A stretch of 64,000 nt of DNA from Selenomonadaceae bacterium (GCA_017554235.1 JAFZIV010000010.1:1-64000), one strand, 5' to 3'; numbered from the stretch's first letter, positions 3,991 to 62,465 are shown. Numbers and translations are program-made. The notes: a model not told the origin generated them from the sequence alone.

Positions 3991-4003
3991 CGAGGTGAAG
4001 CGT

Positions 4004-5113: not shown

Positions 5114-5170
5114 GGGATAAGTGAAAAAAACTATTCCTTATTACATATTCCCTAAAAAGGAAGTGAGATT

Positions 5171-5575: not shown

Positions 5576-5691
5576 GTTTTATGATATTTTCAAGTTTTTA
5601 AATCTACTTTTCTTTTGGCGCAAAAGTTTAAACGTCCTTGTGCGCCTCTCCTGTTTCTAAGTTTACAAAAATCTATGAAGGGAGTTTTTCT

Positions 5692-12807: not shown

Positions 12808-14031
12808 TTGAAAGAAAAAATTTTAAAGTTGAAGGCGGAAGTTCTCGACGAAGTTGCAGAAAGTTTTAAACGCGTTGATGAAGTTGCAGAATTTAATACA
12901 CAAAAAGTTTTAGACGCAATGCGCGAGCTTAAAGTTTCGGACGCGCATTTTAAAACGTCGACTGGTTATGCTTACGGCGACATTGGACGCGAAAAATTAG
13001 AAGAACTTTACGCGAAAATTTTTAAGGCAGAATCAGCATTGGTAAGGACGCAATTTGTTTCAGGCACTCACGCATTGGCAACGGTGCTTTTCGGTATCCT
13101 TCGACCCAATGACGAAATGATTTCTTTAACCGGTGCGCCGTATGATACAATGCAAACTGTCATCAGTAACGGTAAAGGTTCATTGAAAGAATTTGGCGTC
13201 ATTTATCGCGAAATTGATTTGACGCAGACGGAAAATTATTTTGACGAGATAAAAAATTCTATAACGCCTAAAACGAAGTTAGCATTAATTCAAAAATCGC
13301 GCGGCTATTCGACACGTAAAACTTTAACCATTGATGACATTGAAAAAATCTGCGCGGCAGTGAAGGCAGTTAATCCAAATTGTGTGATTTTCGTTGATAA
13401 TTGTTACGGCGAATTTGTTGAGCGACGTGAACCGATTGAGGCGGGCGCGGATATTATTGCGGGAAGTCTGATAAAAAATATTGGCGGCGGACTTGCACCG
13501 ACCGGCGGATATATCGTTGGCAAAAAAGATTTAGTTGAACTTGCAAGCTACAGATTAACTGCGCCCGGTATGGGCGGTGAACTCGGCGCAAGTTTAGGTA
13601 CTCCGCGTCTTTTGTATCAAGGATTATTTTTAGCTCCTCATGTCACCGCGCAGGCTCTTAAGGGCGCGATTTTTGCGGCGGGAATTTTTTCACGATTGGG
13701 CTACAAAGTTTTTCCTGCAACAAAAGATTTACGCGGAGATATTATTCAAGCCGTCGAATTAAACTGCGCGGAAAAATTAATCGCGTTTTGTCAAGCCATA
13801 CAAAAATTTTCGCCCGTCGATTCATACGCAGTACCTGAAGCTTGGGAAATGCCCGGTTATGAAGATAAAGTCATAATGGCGGCAGGAACTTTCGTACAAG
13901 GTGCGTCAATCGAACTTAGCGCGGACGGACCTTTACGCGAACCCTACGCGGTTTATTTGCAGGGCGGCTTAACTTTTGAACACGCGCAGATTGCAATTTT
14001 GGCGGCGGCAGAAAATCTTGTTAATGCGTAA
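12808..14031 (+). CDS. YnbB-type PLP enzyme (methionine gamma-lyase-family protein)
   Basis: Cys/Met-metabolism PLP-dependent family, often annotated as aluminium resistance protein or methionine gamma-lyase-like. The TTG start follows AGGAGA at 12795-12800. Of 407 residues, STGYAYGDIGREKLEELYAKIF, RTQFVSGTHALATVLFG, FVDNCYGEFVE, and the PLP lysine in IAGSLIKNIGGGLAPTGGYI are typical. The true substrate of this family is uncertain. In Bacillus the relative lies near hfq/glnR. Here it is paired with a CsoR-type sensor, which could tie it to sulfur chemistry. Confidence 0.88.
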   Translation: MKEKILKLKAEVLDEVAESFKRVDEVAEFNTQKVLDAMRELKVSDAHFKTSTGYAYGDIGREKLEELYAKIFKAESALVRTQFVSGTHALATVLFGILRPNDEMISLTGAPYDTMQTVISNGKGSLKEFGVIYREIDLTQTENYFDEIKNSITPKTKLALIQKSRGYSTRKTLTIDDIEKICAAVKAVNPNCVIFVDNCYGEFVERREPIEAGADIIAGSLIKNIGGGLAPTGGYIVGKKDLVELASYRLTAPGMGGELGASLGTPRLLYQGLFLAPHVTAQALKGAIFAAGIFSRLGYKVFPATKDLRGDIIQAVELNCAEKLIAFCQAIQKFSPVDSYAVPEAWEMPGYEDKVIMAAGTFVQGASIELSADGPLREPYAVYLQGGLTFEHAQIAILAAAENLVNA

Positions 14032-14039
14032 TGCGTAAT
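14022..14039 (+). repeat. GCGTAAT tandem word at the end of the YnbB-type gene
   Basis: TAATGCGTAATGCGTAAT spans the last codons and the stop (14029-14031). It is one base different from the copy at 2024-2041. Confidence 0.5.
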
Positions 14040-14064
14040 AAAAAATTTTTAGGAGGCTAACTTT

Positions 14065-14976
14065 ATGAAGAAAAAATTAATATTGGCATTAATGGCATTG
14101 ATGATTTTGACATCAGCCTGTGGAACTACTGATAAAAATCAATCGTCGGTAGTTAATGAAGTTGCGCCAAAAATTTCTTCTGCTAAAGCGTCAAGCATTT
14201 ATAACGGCATGGACGCAAAAGTTGAAGAGATTTTGAATGACGGCTCGGAATACGCCGTTTATTTGGCTTACCCGCAAAGTTCTGATGAAGTTTATTTGTA
14301 CAATTCGCAAAAATGGCGTTCGGCAAGTATGATAAAAGTTTTCATTTTGGCGACAACAATGGAAATGGTTAAAGACGGAAATTTGTCCCTCGACCAACAA
14401 TTAACATTAAATTATTACGATAAAGTTGGCGGCGCGGGAATTTTGGGCGGCTATCCTGACGGCAGCAATCTTTCACTGCGTGAAGTGCTTAGGTTGATGA
14501 TAACACAAAGCGACAACACCGCAACTAATATGATTATAGATTTAGTCGGCATGGATACAATTAACGATTATGTTCGCGAAAAAGGCTATAAAGATACAAT
14601 TTTGCAACGAAAAATGATGGATATGGACGCGATTTATTCGGGGCGTGAAAATTATTCGTCGGTTAAAGATTTGGGAAATATTTTCTTAAAAATTTATAAT
14701 CACAAATGCGTTAGCAAAGAATGTGATGATGTAATGTTAGATTTTCTTCTTGGACAAACTGATACTGAATGCTTTAATACCGCACTGCCGGGATTGAGTA
14801 TAGCGCATAAAACAGGCGCATTGGCAGGACTTTTTGACGACGGCGGTATAATTTACGGCGGACCTTCAGGCGATGTGATTTTAGTCATTATGACAGAAAA
14901 TTTTGCGGGCGAATCAATTGTTATCGAAAGTATGAAAAATTTTGCACGTTACGTAGTTTATGATTTCGCGCCGTAA
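14065..14976 (+). CDS. class A beta-lactamase-related serine hydrolase lipoprotein
   Basis: The 303-residue protein has a lipobox (LTSAC, cysteine 19) and the class A penicillin-recognising fold. SxxK is in RSASMIKVF, SDN is in TQSDNTATN, and KTG is in AHKTGAL. Where true class A enzymes have Glu166 in the omega loop, this protein reads QRKMMDMDAIYSGRENYSS, with no clear equivalent. Efficient beta-lactam hydrolysis is therefore doubtful, and a role on peptidoglycan peptides or as a weak binder is possible. The ribosome site is AGGAGG. It lies 33 bases after the YnbB-type gene. Confidence 0.85.
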   Translation: MKKKLILALMALMILTSACGTTDKNQSSVVNEVAPKISSAKASSIYNGMDAKVEEILNDGSEYAVYLAYPQSSDEVYLYNSQKWRSASMIKVFILATTMEMVKDGNLSLDQQLTLNYYDKVGGAGILGGYPDGSNLSLREVLRLMITQSDNTATNMIIDLVGMDTINDYVREKGYKDTILQRKMMDMDAIYSGRENYSSVKDLGNIFLKIYNHKCVSKECDDVMLDFLLGQTDTECFNTALPGLSIAHKTGALAGLFDDGGIIYGGPSGDVILVIMTENFAGESIVIESMKNFARYVVYDFAP

Positions 14977-15023
14977 CTCATAAATTTATATCAAAAAATT
15001 TTTGCGTCGAAAAAACGCGCCAC

Positions 15024-15052
15024 TTGTAAATAAAAAGAAAGCGTGTTAAAAT
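15024..15052 (+). promoter_or_regulatory. mreB promoter
   Basis: TTGTAA (15024-15029), a 17-bp spacer and TAAAAT (15047-15052), 55 bases before the TTG start. A small GAGAG/CTCTC hairpin lies just before the ribosome site. Confidence 0.5.
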
Positions 15053-15107
15053 TTCGGCGCATTTAAATTTTTTGAGAGAATTAACTCTCGGAAGGGAGTT
15101 TTTAATT

Positions 15108-16091
15108 TTGTTTGGAATGACTACAAGCGTAGGAATAGATTTAGGAACTGCAAATGTTTTAGTATTTGTCAAAGGCAAGGGAATAGTTTTACGTGAACCC
15201 TCTGTAGTAGCGGTCGATAAAGATAATGATACGATATTGGCGATAGGTGCAGAGGCACGCGAAATGATTGGACGAACGCCGGGAAATATCGTTGCCATAA
15301 AGCCGTTGCGCGACGGTGTAATTGCTGATTACGATATGACGGAAGCAATGATTCGCCATTTTCTTGAAAAAGTCGTCGGACGTTCATTTTTATTCAGACC
15401 GCGCGTAATGATTTGCGTACCAACAGGTGTTACTATCGTCGAAAAACGTGCAGTACAAGAAGCGGCGGAACAAGCCGGAGCCAAAACTGCTGAATTGATT
15501 GAAGAGCCGATAGCTGCCGCACTTGGTGCAGGCATAGATATTTCCGAGCCTATTGGTTCAATGGTCGTCGATATTGGCGGCGGAACTTGCGATATTGCCG
15601 TAATTTCTCTTGGTGGCATTGTCAACGGTGACAGCTTACGCATTGCGGGTAATCACTTCGACAAAGATATTGAGGCTTACATTAAGAAAAAATATAATTT
15701 GATGATTGGTGAACGTACCGCCGAAAATATTAAAATAGAAATTGGCGCGGCATTTGAAGGCGCACGCAATTCTAAAATGGAAGTCAGAGGGCGCGACGGT
15801 ATTTCAGGCTTACCTAAAACTATCGAAGTTACTACCGAAGATACGGTTATAGCATTGCAGGATTCTGTTGATAAAATTGTTGAAAAGGTTAGAAAAGTGC
15901 TTGAAGCTACTCCGCCTGAACTTGCCGCTGATATTATCGACAGGGGAATTATTTTGACTGGCGGCGGCGCGATGCTTTACGGACTTGCTGAATTGATTCG
16001 TAAAGAAACAGATATTCCTACGTCGGTTGCTGACGATCCGTTAAGTTGCGTTGCACTTGGCACGGGTAGAGCTTTGGAAGGATTTAAATAA
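15108..16091 (+). CDS. mreB: rod-shape actin homologue MreB/Mbl
   Basis: Filament-forming ATPase that guides lateral wall synthesis. The 327-residue product starts at TTG 15108 (MFGMTTSVGIDLGTANVLVF), typical of MreB/Mbl, with GGAAGGGAG upstream. Actin-fold motifs are GIDLGTANVLVFVKGKG (phosphate 1), MVVDIGGGTCDIAVI (phosphate 2) and GIILTGGGAMLYGL (adenosine). The usual partners mreC and mreD are not adjacent, which favours an Mbl-like paralogue. It is transcribed alone, with a terminator after it. Confidence 0.95.
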   Translation: MFGMTTSVGIDLGTANVLVFVKGKGIVLREPSVVAVDKDNDTILAIGAEAREMIGRTPGNIVAIKPLRDGVIADYDMTEAMIRHFLEKVVGRSFLFRPRVMICVPTGVTIVEKRAVQEAAEQAGAKTAELIEEPIAAALGAGIDISEPIGSMVVDIGGGTCDIAVISLGGIVNGDSLRIAGNHFDKDIEAYIKKKYNLMIGERTAENIKIEIGAAFEGARNSKMEVRGRDGISGLPKTIEVTTEDTVIALQDSVDKIVEKVRKVLEATPPELAADIIDRGIILTGGGAMLYGLAELIRKETDIPTSVADDPLSCVALGTGRALEGFK

Positions 16092-16106
16092 TTGTATGAA
16101 TTTTTT

Positions 16107-16128
16107 CTGCCGCGTGGCAGATTTTTTT
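16107..16128 (+). terminator. mreB terminator
   Basis: CTGCC (16107-16111), loop GCGT, GGCAG (16116-16120), then ATTTTTTT. Confidence 0.75.
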
Positions 16129-16148
16129 ATTTTTAAGGAGGAGTTTTT

Positions 16149-18518
16149 TTGATTGAACTTTTAGCACCTGCAGGAAATTTTGACGCACTCAAAGCCGCCG
16201 TTAATGCCGGTGCAGACGCTGTCTATTTAGCGGGTGAAAATTTCGGCGCACGTGCCTACGCTGATAATTTTTCGCGTGAAAATCTTATTGACGCTGTTAA
16301 ATTCGCCCATCTGCGCGGCGTTAAAATTCACGTAACAACCAATACAATTTTAGCTGATGATGAACTTGAAAATTTTGCTGATTATATTAAATTTCTTAAA
16401 AAAATTAACGTCGACGCTCTTTTAGTTCAAGATTTGGGCGCAACTAAAATTATTCAAGAAATTGCTCCTGAAATTCCTCTTCACGCCTCAACTCAAATGA
16501 CTATTCATAATCTCGACGGCGTTAAAATTTTGGAAGAACTTGGATTTTCTCGCGTTGTTTTGAGTCGCGAACTTTCTTTAGCCGAAATTGAACACATTTC
16601 TAAAAATTCTTCGATTGAAACTGAAATTTTTATTCACGGCGCACTTTGTGTTTGTTATTCCGGTCAATGTCTTATGAGTTCTATGATTGGCGGGCGCAGT
16701 GGAAATCGCGGTCGTTGCGCTCAACCTTGCCGTCTCCCTTATAATCTCGTTGATGAAAATGGTAAAAATATTTTAGATAATGTCGGCGAATATATTTTAA
16801 GCCCTAAAGATTTAAATTCTCTTGAACTTTTGCCGCAAATTATTTCCGGCGGCGTAACTTCCTTAAAAATCGAAGGCAGAATGAAACGCCCCGAATATGT
16901 TGCTACAGTCGTAAAAGTTTATCGTGATGCGATTGACGGAAAAATTTCTCCTAATTCGCAAAAAAATCTTTCGCAAATTTTTAATCGCGACTTCACAACC
17001 TCTTATCTTGAAGGCAATCCGCGCAGAAATTTAATCAGCGATAAGCGTCCCAATAATCGCGGAATTTTAATTGGGCGCGTAACTAAAATTTTTGAAAATA
17101 AAATTACTCTCAAACTTACGGAAAAAATTTCTGCAGGTGACCAACTCGAAATTTGGGTAAAAGTCGGCGGACGTGTAACTTTTACTGTTGAAAATTTTTC
17201 TGTAAATGAGGATTTTTGCACGATTGAAACTAAAAATCTGCGCGGCGTTAAAATTCACGACAGAGTTTTTAAAATTTTTGACGCTGAATTAACTGCCGAA
17301 GCTAAAAAATATTTTAACGGAGAATATCAGCGAAAAATTCCTGTTGACGCTAAAGTTACTGCGAAAATTAATCAGCCGCTTATTTTAACTATGACTGACA
17401 TTGACGGAAATTTTGCGACGGCTAAAACTAATTTTATTGCCGAAATTGCCAAGAATCGCCCATTAACTTTAGACACGATACAAAAACAAATTGGTCGGCT
17501 CGGTAATTCTGTTTTTGCGTTGAGAACTTTGGACGCTGATATTGACGAAAATATTATGATTCCTATTAGCGAATTGAACGAAGTCCGCAGAACTGCTACC
17601 GAAAATTTGGAGTTACAACGCTTAAAAAGTAGTCAGTGGTCAGTGGTCAGTGGTCAGTGGAAAATTGAAAATTTTAATCGTGAATTTGAATCTACAAAAA
17701 TCGTTGCTCAAGTTGATACGATAGAAAAAATAAAAGCCGCACTCGATAACGGCGCGGACGCAATTTTATTTGGCGGAGAAAATTTTTGTCACAGAATCGT
17801 AACTCCTGATGAACTTTCAAAAGCTGTAGAATTTGTTCACAATTATGGAAAAGAAATTTATCTTGCAACTCCAAGAATCATTCGCGAAAGTGAAATTTTT
17901 GCCCTCGAAAAAACTTTATCTGTAAAAAATTTTGACGCGGTTTATATTCATAATTTAGCGACGCTTAACATTTTAAAACATTTTAAGCCCGCGCAGATTC
18001 GGACAGATTTTTCGCTGATTGTTTTTAATTCGCAAACTATTGAATTTCTTAAAAATTTGGGCGTTGACGGAGTAACTCTTTCGCCTGAATTGACTTTGGA
18101 GCAAATTAAAACTTTGGCGAAAAAATCTCCTTTGCCTGTTGAATGTATTGTTCACGGAAGGCTTGAATTGATGATTAGTTCTTATTGCGCGATGGGAACT
18201 TTTTTGAGCGGCGATAAAGTTTGCAGTCATCCTTGCAGAAAAAATAATTTTTATCTTAGTGACAGAAAAAATATTTTATTTCCCGTCGTGACTGACCAAT
18301 TTTGTCGTATGCATATTCTTAACTCAAAAACTTTGTCGATGATTGAACAGCGAAATACTTTTGAAAATGTTGACAGAATCAGAATTGATTGCAGATTTTT
18401 AACGACTGATGAAACTGCAAATATTATACGCGCTTACAAATTTGGCGGCAGTGAAATTGAAAATTATACTCGCGGACATTATTTTCGCGGCGTAACTAAT
18501 TTTGAAGATAACAATTAA
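16149..18518 (+). CDS. U32-family peptidase/RNA-hydroxylation protein
   Basis: Large member (789 residues) of the U32 family, whose relatives include RlhA/TrhP, which act in RNA hydroxylation, and collagenase-like proteins. The TTG start follows AAGGAGGAG. The N-terminal barrel starts IELLAPAGNFDALKAAV. The cysteine cluster is in GALCVCYSGQCLMSS and RGRCAQPCRLPY, with LSPKDLNSLELL and SLKIEGRMKRPEYVATV after it. A second, diverged U32-like half runs from about residue 515 and has its own VHGRLELMISSYC and CSHPCRKN motifs. Residues about 495-506 come from an in-frame TCAGTGG repeat (see 17633). Whether it acts on RNA or protein cannot be told here. Confidence 0.9.
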   Translation: MIELLAPAGNFDALKAAVNAGADAVYLAGENFGARAYADNFSRENLIDAVKFAHLRGVKIHVTTNTILADDELENFADYIKFLKKINVDALLVQDLGATKIIQEIAPEIPLHASTQMTIHNLDGVKILEELGFSRVVLSRELSLAEIEHISKNSSIETEIFIHGALCVCYSGQCLMSSMIGGRSGNRGRCAQPCRLPYNLVDENGKNILDNVGEYILSPKDLNSLELLPQIISGGVTSLKIEGRMKRPEYVATVVKVYRDAIDGKISPNSQKNLSQIFNRDFTTSYLEGNPRRNLISDKRPNNRGILIGRVTKIFENKITLKLTEKISAGDQLEIWVKVGGRVTFTVENFSVNEDFCTIETKNLRGVKIHDRVFKIFDAELTAEAKKYFNGEYQRKIPVDAKVTAKINQPLILTMTDIDGNFATAKTNFIAEIAKNRPLTLDTIQKQIGRLGNSVFALRTLDADIDENIMIPISELNEVRRTATENLELQRLKSSQWSVVSGQWKIENFNREFESTKIVAQVDTIEKIKAALDNGADAILFGGENFCHRIVTPDELSKAVEFVHNYGKEIYLATPRIIRESEIFALEKTLSVKNFDAVYIHNLATLNILKHFKPAQIRTDFSLIVFNSQTIEFLKNLGVDGVTLSPELTLEQIKTLAKKSPLPVECIVHGRLELMISSYCAMGTFLSGDKVCSHPCRKNNFYLSDRKNILFPVVTDQFCRMHILNSKTLSMIEQRNTFENVDRIRIDCRFLTTDETANIIRAYKFGGSEIENYTRGHYFRGVTNFEDNN
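17633..17660 (+). repeat. four tandem TCAGTGG heptamers inside the U32 gene
   Basis: Four perfect copies of TCAGTGG lie in the coding sequence and are translated as SQWSVVSGQW. The word matches the TCAGTGGTCAG arm of the palindrome before alr (40750-40760). The block falls at the junction between the two U32-like halves, where an insertion would be tolerated. Confidence 0.8.
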
Positions 18519-48659: not shown

Positions 48660-49007
48660 TTCTGAAAAATTTCTCCTTTGTAATAAATTTTCGCCGAAAG
48701 GCGAGCGGGCATAAATGCTGATAAAGCCGCCGCCCGCTAGCGTAAAAATCCTTCGCCAATGTTATCCCGCAGTTTTTGTTTGCAACACTGTCCCTGTTGC
48801 TCAGGACTGTTTAATCACAAACCGTAGAGCGGCAGATTAGGATTAACGTCCGCCGGTACCTATATATTTGCAGGTAACGTAGTTAAAACTAAGGCTAATC
48901 ACAGAAAATCCGAGATTTTAAATTTGTTGTTTAGGCAAATTCAGCAACCTATGATTTCTGAAAATTTCTCCTTTAAAGTATTTTTAGCCGAATTAACTTC
49001 GACTTTT
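48660..49007 (-). other. 348-base gap between miaA and hfq with hairpins and a duplicated hfq ribosome site
   Basis: No ORF is convincing here. Read on the minus strand, the block AAAGGAGAAATTTTCAGAAAT occurs near the miaA end (about 48956-48976). It recurs with one extra T right before the hfq ATG (about 48658-48679). Between them are a GCGGGC/GCCCGC stem and a TCGCCTTTCGGCGA hairpin near hfq. Several short direct words (TGTGATTA) also occur. It could be a long hfq leader, an independent small RNA, or a decayed partial duplication of the hfq start. I could not match it to a known RNA family. Confidence 0.45.
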
Positions 49008-53215: not shown

Positions 53216-55291
53216 ATGTTGTATTGCAAATTTCAAATGACTTATGATTGTGATGACGATTCTAAAATGTCAGCGGAAGCGGTTTTCAATTCCAATTCAA
53301 GGCGTGAATGGCGTTATAACGTTGTTGAATTTTGTTCCGAACTTAGCGAAGAAAATTTGGGCGGCAAGATAACTTTTATTGTCTACCGCGCCAAGCCGAA
53401 TATTTTTTGGATGATAGCGGCAGTTGATGACATTAAGCCCTTTACTCCCGCAAAAATTAGTAAACGCATTGAAAAATATCTCGACGATCAGATTGAGCAA
53501 GGCGAATACCTTATGGAAAATGTAAAAATTTCTCGCTTTGAAGAAATCACCGTCGGGCAGTTTAGTAAAATTTGCGATCAAGCTAACCGCTCGGACTATA
53601 TTCACGATTATTTTAGAATTGCCGATATGACGGGCATAAACTGCTTGAACAATGAAAACTTCAAGCTTATGGAAACAATTTGTAGCGAAAAAAAGTTGAC
53701 GTATGCCAACGCTAAGAAGAAGGCGGCTAAACTTCTTGCCGATGAAAGTTTTATGGAGGAACTCGGAAGGATTTATTCCGGCGAAAATTCTAAGCGTTTT
53801 TACGGGCAACCTGTTCATTACAAAATTGTTACCGGCAATACAAAATCCGCGCAGTCACTTGCGGTTTTGCTTGCCGAATCGCTTTACTCAAATAAACGTT
53901 TGACGAATCGTCGTATAAGTTATTTTTCCGGCATTACGGAGAATTGTTATTACGAAGAGGATTTTGAAGGGCTTGTCCATAACGCGGAAGGCGGTGTTGT
54001 CGTAATCGAACTTAGCGGCGAACGCGTAAGGACGGGACAATTTGCACATGCTTACGAAGAAGTTGTAGAATTTATTTCGGAAATTGTTAAAAGGAATTGT
54101 CGTAACACGTTATTCATTTTCGTTGAGATTGTCGATAAGCCGGGATTTTCTCAACAACTTATAGCGAAACTGCAGGACAATATTCATCTAATCGAGTTGC
54201 AGGAAGGCGCGGGCAATCGTGATGACGCGCTGATTTATTTGAAAAATCTTATGGAAGATTCAGATATACCCGACGTTTACACGGATGAAGAACTTATTGC
54301 GGCGATGGGCGACAAATTGACTTTTCGCGCATCAGATATTTATCAAGTGCAGGAAAAACTTTACAGCGACGCCTTAAAAAATAAAAGTTATCCCGCCTAT
54401 CGTGAAGTTGACAGAATTGCCGTTAAGGTTGACGCCATAGACGGGGACGCTTATCAAGAGTTACAAAAGTTAATCGGATTGACGGAGCAGAAAGATTTAA
54501 TCGAACAAATTTTAGCGGCGCATCGCGTACAAAAAATGCGTATGGACTTCGGGCTTGATAAACAAAAGGCGTCGTTGCATATGTCATTTACAGGTAATCC
54601 CGGAAGTGCTAAAACTACTGTGTCGCGTCTTATTGCGGCAATTTTAAGCAAGGAAGGCGTTTTAAAAACGGGACGCTTTGTCGAGTGCGGACGCGCAGAT
54701 TTAGTTGCCAAGTATGTAGGTTGGACTGCTAAAACTGTTCGCGAAAAATTTAACGAGGCTCGCGGCGGCGTATTGTTTATTGATGAAGCTTATTCATTGT
54801 CAGACGGCGAACACTCAACTTTTGGCGATGAGGCAATTCATACTATCGTTCAGGAAATGGAAAATCATCGCGAAGATGTTATTGTAATTTTTGCGGGCTA
54901 TCCTGATAAGATGAAAGATTTTCTTGACCGCAATGAAGGTTTACGCAGTCGAATCGCATTTCATATAAATTTCCCGGATTACAACGCTGATGAATTGATA
55001 GAAATTTTGAAATTAATGGCGGCTAAGAAAAGTTACAATCTCGACGATGAAGTTATTGCGCATTGCAGAAAAATTTTTAAACGCGCCGCAACTAAAAAAG
55101 ATTTTGGAAACGGTCGCTTTGTCCGTAACCTTCTTGAGCAGGCGTCTTTGAAACACGCAAGAAGGATTATTCGCGAACACGAAAATTCCGAAATTACGAA
55201 GGAAGATTTACTTCATTTTACGGTTGAAGATTTCAAAGTAAATGTTGATAAAACTTACAAGGATGAAAAAATTCTCGGCTTTAAGCATTAA
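53216..55291 (+). CDS. CbbX/SpoVK-type AAA+ ATPase
   Basis: Large AAA+ protein of 691 residues. The C-terminal ATPase (about 420-690) has LIGLTEQKDLIEQI, Walker A GNPGSAKTT (residue 460 on), Walker B GVLFIDEAYSL (about 519-529), sensor-1 region VIVIFAGYPDKM and GLRSRIAFHINFPDY with the arginine finger, typical of the CbxX/CfqX group. The N-terminal about 410 residues have no family I recognise, apart from a degenerate ATPase-like part around 200-400. CbbX relatives remodel Rubisco, and EccA-type ones serve type VII secretion. Here a repeat and a terminator separate it from the kinase-chaperone genes, but the same strand and content suggest a functional link. Confidence 0.88.
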   Translation: MLYCKFQMTYDCDDDSKMSAEAVFNSNSRREWRYNVVEFCSELSEENLGGKITFIVYRAKPNIFWMIAAVDDIKPFTPAKISKRIEKYLDDQIEQGEYLMENVKISRFEEITVGQFSKICDQANRSDYIHDYFRIADMTGINCLNNENFKLMETICSEKKLTYANAKKKAAKLLADESFMEELGRIYSGENSKRFYGQPVHYKIVTGNTKSAQSLAVLLAESLYSNKRLTNRRISYFSGITENCYYEEDFEGLVHNAEGGVVVIELSGERVRTGQFAHAYEEVVEFISEIVKRNCRNTLFIFVEIVDKPGFSQQLIAKLQDNIHLIELQEGAGNRDDALIYLKNLMEDSDIPDVYTDEELIAAMGDKLTFRASDIYQVQEKLYSDALKNKSYPAYREVDRIAVKVDAIDGDAYQELQKLIGLTEQKDLIEQILAAHRVQKMRMDFGLDKQKASLHMSFTGNPGSAKTTVSRLIAAILSKEGVLKTGRFVECGRADLVAKYVGWTAKTVREKFNEARGGVLFIDEAYSLSDGEHSTFGDEAIHTIVQEMENHREDVIVIFAGYPDKMKDFLDRNEGLRSRIAFHINFPDYNADELIEILKLMAAKKSYNLDDEVIAHCRKIFKRAATKKDFGNGRFVRNLLEQASLKHARRIIREHENSEITKEDLLHFTVEDFKVNVDKTYKDEKILGFKH

Positions 55292-55317
55292 AGAGCTATA
55301 GTAAAGTCAGAGTAAGA

Positions 55318-55414
55318 GAGGCGCGCAAGGACGCGCGCCCGCCCGCGCAAATCGCCGGATGCGATTTCAGCGGGCATGTTTCTCTTTGTTACCTTCTCTT
55401 TGCGCCAAAGAGAA
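55318..55414. repeat. three-hairpin intergenic repeat, copy B
   Basis: Stems are GGCGCGC/GCGCGCC (55320-55326 with 55333-55339), GCCCGC/GCGGGC (55341-55346 with 55370-55375) with an inner AAATCGC/GCGATTT, and TTCTCTTTG/CAAAGAGAA (55394-55402 with 55406-55414). The order and many bases match copy A at 8633-8735 while stems differ by paired changes. Confidence 0.65.
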
Positions 55415-55451
55415 AGTAATTATAAAAAAATTTATCTTATTGAAAATCTTG

Positions 55452-55473
55452 ACTCCTTTGGGAGTTATTTTTT
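55452..55473 (+). terminator. terminator between the AAA ATPase and kinase genes
   Basis: ACTCC (55452-55456), loop TTTG, GGAGT (55461-55465), then TATTTTTT. It suggests the kinase gene has its own promoter. Confidence 0.6.
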
Positions 55474-55547
55474 CTTTTAAAGGAATTGGCTAAGGTTTAT
55501 CGAAATTAAAAATTATGTTTGGCATATTAATTTTAAGGGGTGATTTT

Positions 55548-56861
55548 ATGGCTGAATTTACGCGCTTAAATAAATTTCAACAAATTTCATTGACGGACGG
55601 TTCAACCGCTACCGTTACTGATAAATTAGGTGAGGGCGGTCAAGGCATTGTTTACCGAGTTAAATTGGACGCAACAGGCGAAGAAAAAGCTTTAAAGTGG
55701 TATTTCGTCGGTAACTTTAAAGAACCCAGAAAATTTTATAATCACTTGGAAGAAAATATCAAAGTCGGTTCGCCGTCCGCCGCCTTCGTATGGCCTGAAC
55801 AACTTACGGTTTGGAATGACGACACGCCTTTCGGATATACCATGCCGATTATGCCGAAAGTTTATGAGAGTTTTCCAAAATTCCTTAACGCCAGAGTTCG
55901 TTTCAAAAGTGAAGAAGCACTTGTAAACGCCGCTTTAAATATGGTTTTGGCTTTTAAGGCTCTGCACAATAAAGGTTACAACTACCAAGATTTGAATGAC
56001 GGAAATTTTACCATAGACCCTAACACGGGAAAAGTTTTAATCTGTGATAATGATAATGTTATGGGGCACGGGCAGTACTCCGGCATTTTGGGCAAGGCTC
56101 GCTATATGGCTCCTGAAGTTGTGCGCGGTGATAGTCAACCTGATAAAATTACGGATCGCTATTCATTGGCGGTAATTTTATTTATGTTGTTCATCGGTGA
56201 ACATCCTCTTGAAGGCAAAAAAACTAATGTTCCCGCCTTGACAAATAAATATGATAAAAGATTTTTCGGCGAAGAACCATTGTTTATCTTCGACAAAAAC
56301 GATAATTCTAATGCACCTGTTCCCGGTCTTCATAGAAATGCGCATCTCTGGAAATTTTTCCCAAGCTTCGTGAAAGATGCCTTCCAACAATCTTTTAGTC
56401 AAGAAAGTTTATTGAAGGGACGTGGCAGACTTCTTGAGCAGGATTGGTTTAATATTTTAATGCGACTTAAAAGTTCTATCGTAAAATGTCCTAAATGCGG
56501 CGATAAAATTTTTATGGAAAGCGATATAGAAACGATTTGCGGAAATCACAAGGTTAAGCCCGTCGGTTATTTGCAATTTCCTAAACGCTCGAATCAAGCC
56601 GTAACTGTGCCGATTGTCGGCGGTGCTGTGCTTTATAATTATCATGTCGACAACTCGTCAGAGGATTTTGCAACGATTGCCGCAGTAATTAAGGAAAAGC
56701 CCGGCAAGTTTGGACTTGAAAATAAAACTAATCGCCGTTGGTTGGTAACTTCTCCCAATGGCAAGACAACTCCCAAAAATCCCGGAGAAGTTTTAGTTTT
56801 GGGTGCGGATTTTAAAATTGATTTTGGTAATAACAATTCCGCGCAGGTTATCGTTAATTAA
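55548..56861 (+). CDS. Ser/Thr protein kinase-like protein with C-terminal zinc ribbon (TerY-P triad kinase)
   Basis: Cytoplasmic kinase of 437 residues from ATG 55548 (AAGGGGTGA upstream). The glycine loop is LGEGGQGIVYRV (27-38) and the VAIK lysine is Lys50. The catalytic loop reads YNYQDLNDGNF with Asp148 where HRDLKPxN is usual, and DFG is DND (167-169). MAPEVVRGD is the APE motif. After about residue 300 comes a zinc ribbon (CPKCGDKIF ... ETICGNH) and a beta-rich tail. No membrane helix. The unusual loops recall E. coli YegI. It is followed after 12 bases by the VWA gene, then PP2C, as in TerY-P triads. Confidence 0.88.
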   Translation: MAEFTRLNKFQQISLTDGSTATVTDKLGEGGQGIVYRVKLDATGEEKALKWYFVGNFKEPRKFYNHLEENIKVGSPSAAFVWPEQLTVWNDDTPFGYTMPIMPKVYESFPKFLNARVRFKSEEALVNAALNMVLAFKALHNKGYNYQDLNDGNFTIDPNTGKVLICDNDNVMGHGQYSGILGKARYMAPEVVRGDSQPDKITDRYSLAVILFMLFIGEHPLEGKKTNVPALTNKYDKRFFGEEPLFIFDKNDNSNAPVPGLHRNAHLWKFFPSFVKDAFQQSFSQESLLKGRGRLLEQDWFNILMRLKSSIVKCPKCGDKIFMESDIETICGNHKVKPVGYLQFPKRSNQAVTVPIVGGAVLYNYHVDNSSEDFATIAAVIKEKPGKFGLENKTNRRWLVTSPNGKTTPKNPGEVLVLGADFKIDFGNNNSAQVIVN

Positions 56862-56873
56862 GGAGAAATTTTT

Positions 56874-57620
56874 ATGAGCGTAATGTTAGATAAAGTTCAA
56901 GTGGTTAAGAGAATGTGTCCCGTAATTTTTATGTTGGACACGTCAGGCAGTATGTCAGGTGCGCCAGTTGGTGCAGTCAATGCCGCGATTGAAGGTGTAC
57001 TTCCCGAGTTAATTTCTATGAATGAAGATAACGCCGATAACGAAATTAAAATTGGCGTTATGACTTTTGATTCGGATATTAAATGGGTTACCGGCGATTC
57101 AGAATTGGTTACGCCCGATGAATTAAAAACTAATTGGCAAGATTTGAATGCTGACGGCTTAACGTCAATGGGTTCAGCTTTTCTTGAATTGAATAATAAA
57201 CTTTCCATAAGTCATGGCTTTATGAAACACGCATCAGGCTCTGTTGCGCCGGTACTTTTCCTTTTGTCTGACGGTGAACCTACTGACGATTACAAATACG
57301 GTTTAAATAAATTGCAGGAAAATAATTGGTACAAAGTCGCCGCGAAAGTTGCCATAGGTTACGGTGAATCCAATGATGATGTCCTGCGCGAATTTACACG
57401 AAATGTTGAAACAGTTTTGCATACTGACAGACCCGAAGATTTGAAAAAATTGATTCGTTTTGTAACAATTACTTCGTCAAGAGTTGCAAGCAGTGGTACT
57501 AATGCCGTATCGCCTGATAACAATCCGGTCGACCCCGACGATAATACCCAGCAAGTTGCAAATGCTCTGCAGGCACAAGGCGGAAGTTTAACTAATGCAG
57601 ATGCAGACGAAACTTGGTAA
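56874..57620 (+). CDS. VWA-domain protein (TerY/YegL-like)
   Basis: Single von Willebrand A domain of 248 residues. The metal-ion site is complete: DTSGSMSG (Asp22, Ser24, Ser26), the Thr in DGLTSMGSA, and Asp in LLSDGEPTDDYKYG. The C-terminal about 45 residues are low-complexity (N, D, P, Q, A). YegL/TerY homologues combine with a kinase and a PP2C phosphatase and are thought to act as scaffold or regulator of the pair. Neither signal peptide nor membrane segment is seen. A terminator-like hairpin follows. Confidence 0.9.
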   Translation: MSVMLDKVQVVKRMCPVIFMLDTSGSMSGAPVGAVNAAIEGVLPELISMNEDNADNEIKIGVMTFDSDIKWVTGDSELVTPDELKTNWQDLNADGLTSMGSAFLELNNKLSISHGFMKHASGSVAPVLFLLSDGEPTDDYKYGLNKLQENNWYKVAAKVAIGYGESNDDVLREFTRNVETVLHTDRPEDLKKLIRFVTITSSRVASSGTNAVSPDNNPVDPDDNTQQVANALQAQGGSLTNADADETW

Positions 57621-57632
57621 TTAATTTTTGTG

Positions 57633-57684
57633 TCAGCGATTAGCGGTTGAGAAAAATTTTCAGCTGCTTTTCGCTGATTTTTTT
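57633..57684 (+). terminator. intrinsic terminator or attenuator inside the kinase-chaperone cluster
   Basis: TCAGCGA (57633-57639) pairs with TCGCTGA (57671-57677). An inner 11-bp stem (57642-57652 with 57658-57668, some G-T pairs) closes on AAAAT, and TTTTTTT follows. It lies between the VWA and PP2C genes, so downstream genes may be expressed at a lower level or from another promoter. Confidence 0.7.
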
Positions 57685-57698
57685 CAGGAGGTGTGATT

Positions 57699-58946
57699 TT
57701 GATAAAATTTCGTGAATTTGCCGCCTCTTCGATAGGTTCAAAATACGCCGAAAGGGGCTGGGATTGTCAAGACAGCTCCGATTCGATTTCATTTGATGAC
57801 GTGCAAGCTATAGCTGTAGCTGACGGTCATGGCGGCGGAGATTATTTCCGCAGTCAAATTGGCTCGAAGTTAGCGATTGAAGTTTTATTTCGTCAGCTTC
57901 GCTATGCTTTTGAAAATATGAAGGATACTGAACGTTTTAGCGATACCGGCATAAAAAATTTTAAATATAATTTCGTCAACGAATGGCGCAAAGCTGTAAG
58001 AAAAGATTGGTACGACAGATTAATTGACGGTAAACCGCTTGGTCAAGATGAAATTCGTTATAAATCAGTCAGCGAAAAATATAAGGCGCGTTACACGTCT
58101 GATAATCCCGACGTCGTCGAAAAATATTTATATGTGGCTTACGGCACAACTTTAATCTGCGCGGTGTCAATAGGTAAACAAATTTTGACGTTGCAAATTG
58201 GTGACGGTTCTTGCGTCCTCCTGCAAAGTAACGGAGAATTTAGCTTGCCGATTCCGCCGGAAGAAGAAAATTTTTTAAATATGACGGTTTCACTTTGCGA
58301 TGACAATTCTGAACTTAAAATCCGTCACGCCGTCATAGATTGCAATTCGCCAAACTCTCCTGCCGCAATTTTTCTTAGCACAGATGGGCTTGATGATTGT
58401 TTCCCTTATTATCAAAATGAAGAGCATCTTTATAAATTTTACGCCGACGTTATAATTGACAGCATGGTAAGAAATTTTTTCTTGGCAACTGAAAAAGAAA
58501 TTCGCGAACAACTTTTGCCCGGTCTGACAAAGAAAGCCAGTAAAGATGATATTTCTTTGGCTTATTTAATTTTGCCGACAGTATTGGAGCTTAGAAAAGT
58601 TTTTGGCAAAATCGACGCACGATATAAGTCGACGCCTGAACCGCCTAAAAAAATTTCTTCCGATGAAAATATTTCGTCAACCGCGCAGAAAAAAGTTGTA
58701 AAAGCTTTCGTGCCGCAAAAACTTTCTTCAACCTCTTCAACCACTACGACAACTAAAATTGCCGAATCAGAAATTAAACTCCCGCCGTTTATGGACATTG
58801 CGCCACCAATTCCTCAACAACCTCCGCAACCGCCAAAACAAACATTATTCAAGGCAAATACTGTGTCCTACGGCGCACCTGTACCTGTCGGCGGAACTCC
58901 TCAAACAGAAACTTTTACGCCGAGCATTTTTAAACCTGCGAATTGA
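57699..58946 (+). CDS. PP2C-family protein phosphatase
   Basis: Metal-dependent Ser/Thr phosphatase of 415 residues, expected to reverse the neighbouring kinase. The TTG start 57699 lies seven bases after AGGAGG; GTG 57693 is in frame but too close. Motifs: RGWDCQDS near the N-terminus, AVADGHGGGDYF with metal-binding Asp42, TTLICAVSIGKQILTLQIGDGSC in pieces, FLSTDGLDDCF, and SKDDISLAYLI with the late aspartates. The last about 120 residues are Pro/Ser/Thr-rich linker with repeats such as STSSTTTTTK and QQPPQPPKQ, a possible docking or phosphorylation tail. Confidence 0.9.
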   Translation: MIKFREFAASSIGSKYAERGWDCQDSSDSISFDDVQAIAVADGHGGGDYFRSQIGSKLAIEVLFRQLRYAFENMKDTERFSDTGIKNFKYNFVNEWRKAVRKDWYDRLIDGKPLGQDEIRYKSVSEKYKARYTSDNPDVVEKYLYVAYGTTLICAVSIGKQILTLQIGDGSCVLLQSNGEFSLPIPPEEENFLNMTVSLCDDNSELKIRHAVIDCNSPNSPAAIFLSTDGLDDCFPYYQNEEHLYKFYADVIIDSMVRNFFLATEKEIREQLLPGLTKKASKDDISLAYLILPTVLELRKVFGKIDARYKSTPEPPKKISSDENISSTAQKKVVKAFVPQKLSSTSSTTTTTKIAESEIKLPPFMDIAPPIPQQPPQPPKQTLFKANTVSYGAPVPVGGTPQTETFTPSIFKPAN

Positions 58947-58960
58947 AAGAAGGCTGATTT

Positions 58961-60073
58961 ATGGCGAACAGTGCTACTTTATATGCGGAAGCTTGCAATT
59001 TCGTGAGACGCAATTCAAATTCTCCGTATTGGCAGAAAAATTTTTATCTGCAGATATTGACGACGATGTTTCAAGAATTGCTTACGACTAAAACTTCGCC
59101 GCTTATTTCAAAATTCTGCGCGGACAGTAAAATAAATTTTGAAGGAAAAAATTTTAAAATTGAACCTGTGCAAAATCCTTCGCCTATACCAACTTCCTTT
59201 GATATGGGAGTTATTCTTTTGGGGCTTGCTTATGCTTTCACTGAAAACATTGACACCTGCGCGACCGTTCACAATAATTACGTCAGAGATATATTTCGCG
59301 GGCAAACTTTGAAAGATGAACTTCGACCAAGTTTACTTAGCGCGTTGCAAACGATTGACGATTGCTTAGAAAAATTTCATGCGGCAGAAAAAATTGTCTA
59401 CGTTGAAAAGCCTGTCGAAAAAGTTGTAGAAAAAATTATTGAAAAGCCCGTTGAAAAAATCGTAGAAAAGATGGTTGATAGAACTGCGCCGCCTAAAATT
59501 ATTTATGACGAAGATAATTTGATGAAGACGTTGGACGATATTGCGCAGAATCGTAAAGCCGATGATGAAAAAATTGTCGACGAAATAAAAAAAGTCCAGC
59601 AGACTATGCAGGACGAACTTAACGCGGTTCAACAAAGTTTGAAAAAAATTTCAGAGATTCGCGAAGAAATAGATTATCGCAGTTTGAAAGAGCCGATTTA
59701 TCAGTTGATTGAACTTTATCGAAAAATTGACGATAACGTAAAGCGTCATCCTATGGAGGATACGGCTAAGGGTTATTCGTCGCTTATGAAACGTTGCGAA
59801 AGTTTTTTGAAGTATGTAAATCAATCTTTGAAAATGCTTGGCGTCGAACTCATAAACGAAACAGATATTACTTTCAATCCTGACAAAAATAAACTTGCCG
59901 ACGATGAACAAGCCCCGCTGGATTCGACTGTTACGAAAATTATAAAAGTCGGCTTCATTTACAAAGGTCAAGTTCTCGAAAAGGCAGAAGTCGAAATTTC
60001 TAAGTCAGAGTCAAGTTCAACGATTAATATTCCAAATTTTTCGGAGGTAAAAGCTGATGAAAATCGGAATTGA
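58961..60073 (+). CDS. coiled-coil protein with a GrpE-like C-terminal domain
   Basis: Candidate dedicated nucleotide-exchange factor for the next gene's Hsp70. Of 370 residues, 1-140 are a helical domain I do not recognise. Residues about 145-172 are a VEKxVEK repeat linker. Residues about 180-290 are helical coiled coil. Residues from 294 (GVELINETDITFNPDKN, then VTKIIKVGFIYKGQVLEKAEVEI) follow the pattern of the GrpE beta domain: GVxxI, FDPxxH-like, VxxVxxxGYxxxxRVLRxAxVxV. The key FDP and GYxxxxRVLRPA are only partly kept. Its end overlaps the Hsp70 start by 17 bases. The GrpE assignment is my inference. Confidence 0.72.
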   Translation: MANSATLYAEACNFVRRNSNSPYWQKNFYLQILTTMFQELLTTKTSPLISKFCADSKINFEGKNFKIEPVQNPSPIPTSFDMGVILLGLAYAFTENIDTCATVHNNYVRDIFRGQTLKDELRPSLLSALQTIDDCLEKFHAAEKIVYVEKPVEKVVEKIIEKPVEKIVEKMVDRTAPPKIIYDEDNLMKTLDDIAQNRKADDEKIVDEIKKVQQTMQDELNAVQQSLKKISEIREEIDYRSLKEPIYQLIELYRKIDDNVKRHPMEDTAKGYSSLMKRCESFLKYVNQSLKMLGVELINETDITFNPDKNKLADDEQAPLDSTVTKIIKVGFIYKGQVLEKAEVEISKSESSSTINIPNFSEVKADENRN

Positions 60074-61520
60074 TTTTGGCACGACGTTTTCATTACCTGC
60101 CGCGATAATTAACGGTCATCCCGCAACTTTATTGCCGGGCGGCGCGTATGGAGTTCCCTCTGTCTTTTATCGCGATGCTAAAATGGGAATTTTAATTGGG
60201 CAACCTGCGGAAAATCGCGGACAACATAAACCCGCTAATGTCGTGCGCAATGTGAAAATGTTTATCCGTGATACGTCGACGAAAGATTTTAGGTTGGACG
60301 GCAGAAACTTTACCAAAAAACAAATCGTCGGCGATATTATTAATGAAGTTGCAAAAATCGCTCGTGAAGAAATTAATTTGAAACAGTTGAAATCGCAAGA
60401 CATTGAAGGCGCAGTAATTTCTGTACCGGCGGCTTTTGATATTCGTGAACTTGATTTTATTAGGCAAGCGGCGGAAGATAATTCAGGGCTTAGGGTATTG
60501 GGCTTTATTCGCGAACCTGTAGCGGCGGCAATTTCTTATTTCAACGCGCCCAGTGCTGAAGATAAAAAAACTATTTTGGTTTACGATTTAGGCGGCGGAA
60601 CTTGTGACGTTGCTATTGTCCGCGCAGATAAAAATTCTAAGGAATGGTACACCGTTTTAGCGTCTGATATGCGGCGAATCGGCGGCAGAGATTGGGACAA
60701 TATTCTTGTTGAAATGATTAAGCTGAAATGTCGCGAAGAAGATGAGTACATAGAATTTAGCAAGCGCGATGAAGAAAAAATCCGTCGCGAGGCTCTTAAC
60801 GTTAAACATAATCTTTCAAAGCTTAATGAATTTGCGTCACAAGTTGAAGTTAATGGCGAAATATACGATTTTGAAATTACGCGCAGGGATTTTGAAAAAA
60901 AATCTTCCGAGTTATTGCAGTCAACAATGAAAATGGTTGATGAACTCAAAAATAAATTCGGCGGCAAGATTGACTACATTGTTTGCGTTGGCGGTAGTTC
61001 TCAAATGCCGCAAGTAAAATCTGCCTTTGAAAAAAATTATCCAGATATTGAATTGAAACTTTATGAGCCGGAAAAAGCTATAGCATTTGGCGCGGCTATT
61101 TACGCGGATCACTTAAAAGAAGAAAATTACCTGCGCGACATCTGCAAATTTTCTTACGGCGCACGATACATTGAAAATTTTGCAAAGTATCACGATAAAG
61201 ACAGGCTTAAAATTTGGAATATCATTTACAAAGATACAAATCTGCCCGCGTCCGGTGAATCGACTTCCTATAAAATTAACGCAGAGCAAAATTCTATTTA
61301 CATTGCGATTTACGAATCAGAATGCACCGATGACATTTACGACCCGGCGAAAGGAAAATATATAGGCGACATTGAAATTACCGGCGTCAAGGACAGTAAA
61401 ACATCGTCGGGCATACTTTTGACGATGACGATTGACAGGAGCGGTTTAATGCACCTGAAGGCGGTTGATAAGCATACGGGAAAATCTGCTGAAGCCGATA
61501 TTCATTTGGAAAGTTATTAA
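60057..61520 (+). CDS. short Hsp70-family chaperone (lidless, YegD/DnaK-like)
   Basis: ATP-dependent chaperone of 487 residues against about 610-640 for DnaK. The ATPase domain is complete: MKIGIDFGTTFS, VYDLGGGTCDVAIV (Asp177), VGGSSQMPQV, FGAAIYADH. After about residue 380 there is a shortened beta domain (SGILLTMTIDRSGLMHLKAVD), and the helical lid is absent. The RGD-type interdomain linker is not obvious. It overlaps the GrpE-like gene by 17 bases and precedes DUF805. No DnaJ-like gene is present in the block. Confidence 0.92.
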   Translation: MKIGIDFGTTFSLPAAIINGHPATLLPGGAYGVPSVFYRDAKMGILIGQPAENRGQHKPANVVRNVKMFIRDTSTKDFRLDGRNFTKKQIVGDIINEVAKIAREEINLKQLKSQDIEGAVISVPAAFDIRELDFIRQAAEDNSGLRVLGFIREPVAAAISYFNAPSAEDKKTILVYDLGGGTCDVAIVRADKNSKEWYTVLASDMRRIGGRDWDNILVEMIKLKCREEDEYIEFSKRDEEKIRREALNVKHNLSKLNEFASQVEVNGEIYDFEITRRDFEKKSSELLQSTMKMVDELKNKFGGKIDYIVCVGGSSQMPQVKSAFEKNYPDIELKLYEPEKAIAFGAAIYADHLKEENYLRDICKFSYGARYIENFAKYHDKDRLKIWNIIYKDTNLPASGESTSYKINAEQNSIYIAIYESECTDDIYDPAKGKYIGDIEITGVKDSKTSSGILLTMTIDRSGLMHLKAVDKHTGKSAEADIHLESY

Positions 61521-61532
61521 GGAGAATTTTTT

Positions 61533-61961
61533 ATGAATGACAAAACTATTCCTGAAATTTTTTTCAAGCGTGAAGGTCGTCTTAATCGTTGGCGTTATTT
61601 TAAGCGTAATGTTGTATTGGGAATTATTTCAAGCTTTATAATGGTTGTTATTGAATTGTTTTTTGGCAACATTAACGAAAATATTTCGACGACCGGCAAT
61701 GTACTTTTATTTGTTGCGATGATGTTAATCCTTGTGCCGTCATATTGTCTTGTGGTACGGCGTCTTCACGATATGGACAGGGACGAACTTTTAGCTAAAG
61801 TTTATATTGCAGGTTGTGCGGCAAGTTATTTTTTAAGTTTTGTTTTGAAATATGATTTTATGCCACTTAGCGTCGTGATGGTAATCGTTGCGCTTTATAT
61901 TTTGTTTGTACCCGGCACATATGGCACAAATAAATACGGTGCTGACCCTTTAAATAACTAA
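61533..61961 (+). CDS. DUF805 membrane protein
   Basis: Small integral membrane protein of 142 residues with four hydrophobic helices. FFKREGRLNRWRYFKRN at the start, RRLHDMDRDEL in the loop, and VPGTYGTNKYGADPL near the C-terminus are DUF805 hallmarks. Function is unknown. Its ribosome site AAGGAGAA lies 12 bases after the Hsp70 stop, so it is part of the same transcript. It could be the membrane target or anchor of the module. Its end overlaps a convergent gene by 12 bases. Confidence 0.9.
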   Translation: MNDKTIPEIFFKREGRLNRWRYFKRNVVLGIISSFIMVVIELFFGNINENISTTGNVLLFVAMMLILVPSYCLVVRRLHDMDRDELLAKVYIAGCAASYFLSFVLKYDFMPLSVVMVIVALYILFVPGTYGTNKYGADPLNN

Positions 61962-62465
61962 AGAAATTATCGCCATAACTGAACTTATTATTATTCCGTA
62001 GGTTATCCTGCGGATTTTTTTTGCGCTCATTGAATTGAAAATTTTTTGTAAATCTTGTACGCCTATTACCAGCAAAATTACAAAAAATATCGTTCCAATT
62101 AAAACTATCGGCTCAAGTAAATTTTCCAAAAAAATTTCTGTCGCGTCAACATTAAAGTCAGATTTAAAACTGGATAAATAAAAAAATTCTGATGCGCATA
62201 TTACTGAAAAAATTCCTATCAATGCTCGCTGTAAAAATTTTTTTAACTTTTTCTTTTTCGCCATCCCAAAATTTATTACCAGCGTCAATATAAAAATTAC
62301 CGTCGTAACGCAAAAAAATTGTTGCGCGTAATGAAAAAATTTTTCCGCACTCGGTAAAAATTCTTTGTTCCCTACAAATGTTTGTAAAATTATCGGCAAA
62401 TTTAATATCGCCAATATGAAAAAAAATGCGCCGTCTGTCTTTACGGCTTTAAAAATTTTCTCCAT
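61950..62465 (-). CDS. membrane protein resembling the N-terminal domain of phosphoethanolamine transferases
   Basis: The 171 residues contain four or five hydrophobic helices (GAFFFILAILNLPIILQ, CVTTVIFILTLVINFG, ALIGIFSVICASEFFYL, IVLIGTIFFVILLVIG, YGIIISSVMAIISLVI). The layout of a helix, SSFKSDFNVDATEIFLENLL, then a helix resembles the membrane part of EptA-like sulfatase-fold transferases. The catalytic domain is absent, and the reading frame ends where the DUF805 gene begins on the other strand. It may be a truncated gene or an independent membrane protein. ATG 62465 is one base from the mnmE stop, so it is coupled to mnmE. Confidence 0.6.
   Translation of the reverse strand: MEKIFKAVKTDGAFFFILAILNLPIILQTFVGNKEFLPSAEKFFHYAQQFFCVTTVIFILTLVINFGMAKKKKLKKFLQRALIGIFSVICASEFFYLSSFKSDFNVDATEIFLENLLEPIVLIGTIFFVILLVIGVQDLQKIFNSMSAKKIRRITYGIIISSVMAIISLVI

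Follow-up and report, generated by a model that had tools for sequence, protein, structure and literature searches.

The TerY-P triad, as presented in the part of PMC11090510 that cites Anantharaman et al. 2012, is made up of a TerY-like VWA protein, a PP2C phosphatase and a kinase with a C-terminal zinc ribbon. TerY-P modules are add-ons to various systems; TerY-P-like modules also serve on their own as antiphage systems, and they are found together with CoCoNuTs that have Hsp70-like domains (PMC11090510). In E. coli, PphC dephosphorylates YegI (PMC13232886). Among the GTPase-centred GAP1-N2 conflict systems one theme comprises HSP70 and GrpE, and another, restricted to actinobacteria, comprises a kinase-zinc ribbon-beta domain protein with PP2C and vWA; the two themes are called non-overlapping and surround the GTPase and GAP1 (PMC7159879). 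Here we analyse the locus at positions 53216-61961 of a 64,000-nucleotide stretch from a Selenomonadaceae bacterium (GCA_017554235.1 JAFZIV010000010.1:1-64000; the whole stretch is called the window below), where five genes, KIN-VWA-PP2C-GRPEL-HSP70, join such a triad to an Hsp70 and a GrpE-like protein and recur as a unit. From the sequences and predicted structures we consider it about an even chance that this is an operon that places a dedicated Hsp70 machine, with its own nucleotide-exchange factor, under the control of a TerY-P-type phospho-switch.

Composition and conservation of the cassette

Seven open reading frames occupy the locus at the positions and in the order given by an initial annotation of this DNA. 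Pfam profiles, each scoring above its curated cut-off, identify them in succession as AAA+, kinase, VWA, PP2C, GrpE-like, Hsp70 and DUF805 genes, in agreement with that annotation, which had also given the kinase its zinc ribbon. The GRPEL and HSP70 genes overlap by 17 nt (60057-60073), again as had been claimed. The parts of the five-gene unit, and a hairpin that lies between two of them, are as follows:

55548..56861, + strand: KIN, a TerY-P-type Ser/Thr kinase with a kinase domain, a zinc ribbon and a C-terminal beta-rich domain at about residues 340-437 (Pkinase, 1.4e-18)
56874..57620, + strand: VWA, a stand-alone TerY/YegL-type protein with an intact metal ion-dependent adhesion site (MIDAS) (VWA, 7.6e-10)
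57632..57684, + strand: terminator-like hairpin (57632-57678) with a T-run in the gap between VWA and PP2C, a candidate internal attenuator (RNAfold, -28.9 kcal/mol)
57693..58946, + strand: PP2C, a phosphatase whose metal-binding Asp residues are intact and whose C-terminal tail varies (PP2C_2, 3.6e-28)
58961..60073, + strand: GRPEL, with an N-terminal helical domain and a GrpE-type part (GrpE PF01025, 5.3e-9, residues 193-348)
60057..61520, + strand: HSP70, a lidless 487-aa protein consisting of the nucleotide-binding domain and the beta part of the substrate-binding domain (PF00012, HSP70, 3.8e-52)

Close homologues of GRPEL are present in 22 of 189 genomes of Selenomonadaceae, all of them in one genus of 30. 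The carriers are named as uncultured Selenomonadaceae or Selenomonadales metagenome-assembled genomes, several of them labelled as coming from the rumen, omasum or duodenum of goat or sheep or from reindeer, and one labelled Quinella. When their neighbourhoods were annotated by tblastn, phmmer and hidden Markov models (HMMs), Hsp70 proved to be the next gene after GRPEL in 23/23 copies with readable downstream sequence, and a full triad lay upstream of GRPEL in 18 of the 20 copies that extend far enough upstream; the exceptions are G048 and one copy in G012, and the remaining copies are cut by contig ends. By tblastn, the triad was found upstream in L060. The same five-gene order is found again in over a dozen further genomes. 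The initial annotation had staked its claim on homologues of these genes clustering elsewhere, and the cluster is indeed conserved elsewhere in the genus.

Two arrangements of the cassette occur. Most copies (type A) have the order KIN-VWA-PP2C-GRPEL-HSP70, and L063 and L156 (type B) have VWA-PP2C-KIN-GRPEL-HSP70, with the same five parts in diverged form. Retention of all five parts despite this reordering argues for a functional unit. The idea that the genes are chance neighbours does describe the flanking AAA and DUF805 genes (see below), but for the five genes it is contradicted by the recurrent order, by the second order with the same parts and by the short gaps and overlaps, and we give it next to no credence. 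In addition, 13 of 19 copies have a consensus TTGNNN-16/18-TATAAT pair (-35/-10) about 50-70 nt ahead of the KIN start, which places the apparent start of the unit at KIN; no strict match to this pair is present in the window copy.

The patchy presence of the cassette within one genus would suit antiphage defence, with the switch detecting infection and the Hsp70 machine remodelling a phage or host protein. The TerY-P-like antiphage systems and CoCoNuTs with Hsp70-like domains (PMC11090510) and the HSP70-GrpE and kinase-PP2C-vWA themes of conflict systems (PMC7159879) point in the same direction, as does a copy that adjoins type III restriction genes. However, the cassette encodes no nuclease, pore or NADase effector, and the PADLOC matches were partial, to kinase, AAA and Hsp70 domains, with no system model matched over most of a protein. 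GRPEL was not found in plasmids or viral contigs, and several copies adjoin housekeeping-type genes, for example peptide deformylase (a deformylase-like gene is present in 8 loci). We regard a defence role as unlikely.

The cassette of L053 is flanked by type III restriction-modification genes and a gene for an AbiU-like protein (3943-5796, 13665-18430). Other genera of the family yielded no GRPEL, and phylum-level matches to it were weak and lay mostly within its GrpE-like portion, which is consistent with canonical GrpE; a match in G004 was to EF-Ts and was set aside as false.

The GrpE-like protein

GRPEL scores 36.4 bits against PF01025 in type A (cut-off 25.8) and 36.8 bits in type B, and an alignment profile of GRPEL matches E. 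coli GrpE in 1DKG by way of the beta-wing (E = 0.001). The AlphaFold model (m6859f143dd17) has a 53-residue helix (184-236), two shorter bundle helices and a C-terminal beta-wing (295-347); its confidence is moderate (pLDDT 73, pTM 0.40), as is expected for a single chain of an elongated dimer. In a Foldseek search with this model the 11 best PDB matches were all GrpE chains (probability 0.98-1.00), among them chains from GrpE-DnaK and GrpEL1-mortalin complexes. The initial annotation had called this coiled-coil protein GrpE-like and had made the call depend on the fold of the C-terminus of the 58961-60073 product. A profile match above the gathering score, the predicted topology and the 11 GrpE matches all uphold it, and the GrpE assignment is firm. 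GRPEL is a putative nucleotide-exchange factor for the cassette Hsp70.

N-terminal to the GrpE-type part lies an additional, non-GrpE helical domain (residues 1-136), followed by a variable linker. Homology between the type A and type B N-terminal domains is not significant (hhalign probability 6%); they show a similar pattern, which hints at it (NSxxLY at the start, ELxxxxxxSP). The type B GRPEL of L063 is about 22% identical to that of the window. The low identity to GrpE, the large non-GrpE domain and the variable linker would fit a scaffold rather than an exchange factor, with the GrpE-derived coiled coil and beta-wing tethering Hsp70 to the kinase complex through the N-terminal domain, and a shortened loop in the cassette Hsp70 (below) would fit as well. 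But the beta-wing, which is the cleft-opening part in known GrpE-DnaK complexes, is the very region that matches solved GrpE sequences and folds, and we find a scaffold quite improbable.

The cassette Hsp70

The ATPase residues of DnaK (D8, T11, K70, E171, D194, GGGT 196-199 and D201) are kept in the type A Hsp70s examined, and K70 is replaced by Arg in one type B copy. The position of DnaK R167, the arginine that contacts the J-domain, is Gly in all cassette Hsp70s examined, and the Arg is kept in HscA and HscC. The hydrophobic linker VLLLD is replaced by sequences of the NYLRD/FLHD type in which L391 and D393 alone are retained. The alpha-helical lid is absent: the HSP70 profile match stops at about 497/599, where the protein ends, and comparison with the PDB agrees. 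No J-protein gene lies within the cassette. Loss of the J-contact arginine, the lid and most of the linker, together with the lack of a J-protein in the cassette, suggests that nucleotide exchange, and possibly phosphorylation, sets the cycle of this Hsp70 in place of a J-protein.

In a tree in which several outgroup branches are long, and that of YegD very long, the type A and type B cassette Hsp70s fall into a single clade (SH-aLRT 94) that excludes DnaK, HscA, HscC, YegD and the other Hsp70s of the genome. The type B Hsp70 of L063 is about 41-42% identical to the window Hsp70. The housekeeping DnaK and GrpE are encoded separately on contig C19 of the same genome, so the cassette pair is additional to them. 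On contig C64 of this genome (L064:6896-12205), two further Hsp70-like genes flank a gene for a 736-aa coiled-coil protein, and the second of them has lost ATPase residues (T11A, K70T, E171T and T199M); by sequence this looks like another specialised Hsp70 system.

The kinase-VWA-PP2C triad

The three upstream genes have the features of a TerY-P triad, namely adjacent genes for a kinase, a stand-alone VWA protein and a PP2C phosphatase, a zinc ribbon fused to the kinase and an intact MIDAS. The KIN catalytic residues K50, D148, N153 and D167 are invariant in 16 homologues. Its zinc ribbon in the window copy has C314, C317 and C331 (CxxC...C) and an Asn/His pair, a putative zinc-binding set, and in most relatives it reads CxxC...CxxC. 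The AlphaFold model of KIN has a pTM of 0.71, and its top PDB fold matches are protein kinases; no fold was assigned to the C-terminal beta domain in this structure search, which is dominated by kinase-domain matches. The VWA MIDAS (D22xS24xS26, T97, D133) is invariant in 18 homologues, and the metal-binding residues D44, D231 and D286 of PP2C are likewise invariant. Some type A copies (L048, L057 and L161) have two VWA genes. The type B phosphatase (L063:7074-8735) has a C-terminal stretch that looks beta-rich and is by eye similar to the kinase C-terminal domain.

A hairpin between VWA and PP2C

The conserved VWA-PP2C hairpin is a new observation, absent from the initial annotation. In nearly every copy a strong hairpin followed by a T-run, of the intrinsic-terminator type, lies between these two genes. 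Sixteen copies share a nearly invariant core, AATCCCTTGA(n)TTTCAGGGGATTTTTCTA (one stem base is A or G), between flanks that have diverged. A search of 60 genomes for the exact pattern gave nine matches in 8 genomes, one per cassette, every one of them in the VWA-PP2C gap. A simple terminator finder likewise marks this junction in 16 of 20 copies, as against 1/20, 0/17, 1/14 and 1/13 at the other four junctions. The window and L045 have different hairpins with T-runs at the same position, L047 has none there, and the hairpin of L157 is long and A+T-rich with no clear T-run. The L157 hairpin (1045-1138, in G002), which stands in for the usual one, is a near-perfect palindrome and may be a small mobile repeat.

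A U-G pair in the stem becomes a mismatch on the opposite strand, as would fit a one-way terminator. Where the VWA gene is duplicated, the hairpin sits after the first VWA. There is little space for a promoter between the hairpin and PP2C, which points to attenuation with read-through, and its sequence and place suggest that the hairpin would attenuate transcription of PP2C-GRPEL-HSP70.

How the cassette might work

Recurrent linkage, the folds of the proteins, the conserved catalytic residues and MIDAS, and homology to the E. coli yeg locus all count in favour of a phospho-switch acting on a chaperone. In such a machine the VWA protein, with metal bound at its MIDAS, and the zinc ribbon and beta domain of the kinase would form a stress-sensing signalling complex. 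From the sequences we infer that kinase and phosphatase act on the chaperone: the kinase would phosphorylate, and PP2C dephosphorylate, GRPEL, Hsp70 or their bound complex. GRPEL, which has the long helices and beta-wing of the GrpE fold, would dimerise by the former and open the Hsp70 nucleotide cleft with the latter, thus setting client release. The Hsp70 probably acts without DnaJ on a few specific clients, and phosphorylation or the exchange factor may replace a J-protein as the control point. Since the hairpin follows VWA, expression of PP2C, GRPEL and HSP70 would need read-through, and kinase and VWA would be made first or in excess. A more specific proposal, that this is an Hsp70 machine free of J-protein control and gated by Ser/Thr phosphorylation of its private exchange factor or of the Hsp70 itself, with an internal attenuator balancing kinase and VWA against phosphatase, exchange factor and chaperone, we put forward tentatively, as speculative but possible.

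Several observations weigh against a phospho-switch dedicated to this chaperone. The lobe-IIB loop (DnaK 276-302) is shortened in the cassette Hsp70, as it is in HscA, and GrpE-type exchange on this Hsp70 is accordingly not assured. No compensatory changes were seen in the hairpin, and with no covariation the conserved thing could be its primary sequence; an Rfam search of the cassette also gave no match for the hairpin, so the case for it is carried by invariant sequence, position and T-run. The genome G048, which is 99% complete, has GRPEL-HSP70 and no triad kinase, and the pair can thus stand alone. Finally, very similar triads without chaperone genes occur in G127 (another genus; kinase, 672 bits), on a Prevotella plasmid, on a Methylomonas plasmid and in G395, so that a tie to chaperones is not a general property of the triad. 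It is an exchangeable module, as PMC11090510 states for TerY-P. Downstream of the triad in G127 (L129:3182-11530) come two proteins with no confident family assignment and a DUF4145 protein, possibly an alternative effector of this switch.

These chaperone-free triads, which pair with other partners, and the description of TerY-P modules as add-ons (PMC11090510) would also suit an arrangement in which the triad acts as regulator and effector in another process, such as a metal or envelope stress signal, and the Hsp70-GRPEL pair serves only to assemble or disassemble its complex. The chaperone would then be a maintenance factor and not the output. Persistence of the pair without the triad in G048 speaks against this, as does the same pairing in both gene orders. 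Linkage alone cannot separate regulator from client. We judge this arrangement somewhat unlikely.

The cassette bears on two questions. The targets of TerY-P/Yeg kinase-phosphatase modules are not established in the papers examined; the cassette supplies two candidate substrates, and five small proteins are enough to put the question to the test. Its Hsp70 would also be an unusual one, which has kept its ATPase residues and an exchange factor and has lost the J-contact, the lid and the greater part of the hydrophobic linker; it would be a natural case for learning how an Hsp70 cycle starts without a J-domain. With the hairpin, control over kinase-to-phosphatase stoichiometry gains a further layer that can be tested.

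Flanking genes and other features of the window

Two genes that adjoin the cassette lie outside the unit:

53216..55291, + strand: AAA+ protein with a C-terminal SpoVK/CbbX-like module (AAA, 2.5e-14; AAA_lid_6, 1.3e-16)
61533..61961, + strand: DUF805 membrane protein (DUF805, 3.8e-16)

The AAA protein resembles SpoVK, CbbX and EccA and scores far below their equivalog cut-offs; the AAA module takes up only residues 410-675 or so, and about 400 N-terminal residues have no Pfam match. The initial annotation had made this CbbX-type remodeller part of the machine. Its homologues are present in most sampled genomes of the genus and are unlinked to the cassette, being on other contigs in G011, G025, G021 and G012 and about 60 kb away in G016; they are absent from other cassettes, and in the window a terminator-like site (55450-55467) separates the AAA gene from KIN. 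We therefore rejected it as a member. A ClpX-like AAA gene (PF07724 and ClpB_D2-small; L063:4967-6274, in G046) lies directly before one type B cassette and is not present at the other (L156, in G012). DUF805, which had also been counted as part of the cluster, was dropped as well, since it is not conserved beside other cassettes; apart from the window, L044, the closest relative, is alone in having it near the cassette, at a distance of 1.3 kb. In the window a terminator-like hairpin (61995-62014) lies downstream of it.

Elsewhere, the window carries a HEARO RNA at 48742-48955 (- strand; RF02033, 90 bits, gathering 83) and a RAGATH-18 RNA at 46-107 (+ strand; RF03064, 67 bits, gathering 45).

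Comparison with known systems

The E. coli locus yegI-yegL-pphC(yegK)-yegD likewise encodes a kinase, a VWA protein, a PP2C phosphatase and an Hsp70-family protein, all four homologous to cassette proteins. HMMs built from the cassettes and run on five yeg-locus proteins give 46 bits for YegI, 58 for YegL, 42 for PphC and 43 for YegD (bits are the measure here, the set being of five sequences), and the match of the triad to TerY-P/Yeg proposed in the initial annotation is thereby confirmed. With these HMMs, no GrpE-like protein was found among the five, so the E. coli locus has triad and Hsp70 without an exchange factor among the tested proteins, and its yegD is on the opposite strand. YegD lacks the DnaK linker and K70 and does not group with the cassette Hsp70s, but its branch is very long.

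CoCoNuTs of Type II and III-A also have a TerY-P triad and an Hsp70-like component; their Hsp70 homologues have degenerate ATP-binding motifs, whereas the ATPase residues of the cassette Hsp70 are intact, and CoCoNuTs sit with McrB-type GTPases and HEPN nucleases (PMC11090510). Profiling of the proteins encoded around the window cassette, a search that was not genome-wide, revealed no McrB-type GTPase or coiled-coil nuclease partner. The cassette joins in one compact operon both gene sets of the GAP1-N2 themes, and a Pfam scan, run without dedicated GAP1-N2 profiles, recognised no GTPase gene in it. In Pirellula a Ser/Thr kinase is physically coupled to Hsp70 as a single fused protein, with no VWA, PP2C or GrpE reported alongside (PMC1262709). 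The housekeeping DnaK-GrpE pair shares with the cassette an Hsp70, an exchange factor and the GrpE fold; compared with DnaK, the cassette Hsp70 has no lid, Gly for the J-contact Arg, an NYLR-like sequence for VLLL and a shortened lobe-IIB loop.

The five-gene combination was not found in the literature searched, which did not extend to the original TerY-P paper, so its absence is unproven; the Quinella genome paper makes no mention of chaperones or Ser/Thr kinases. The passages on TerY-P in PMC11090510 do not describe a dedicated Hsp70 and GrpE pair.

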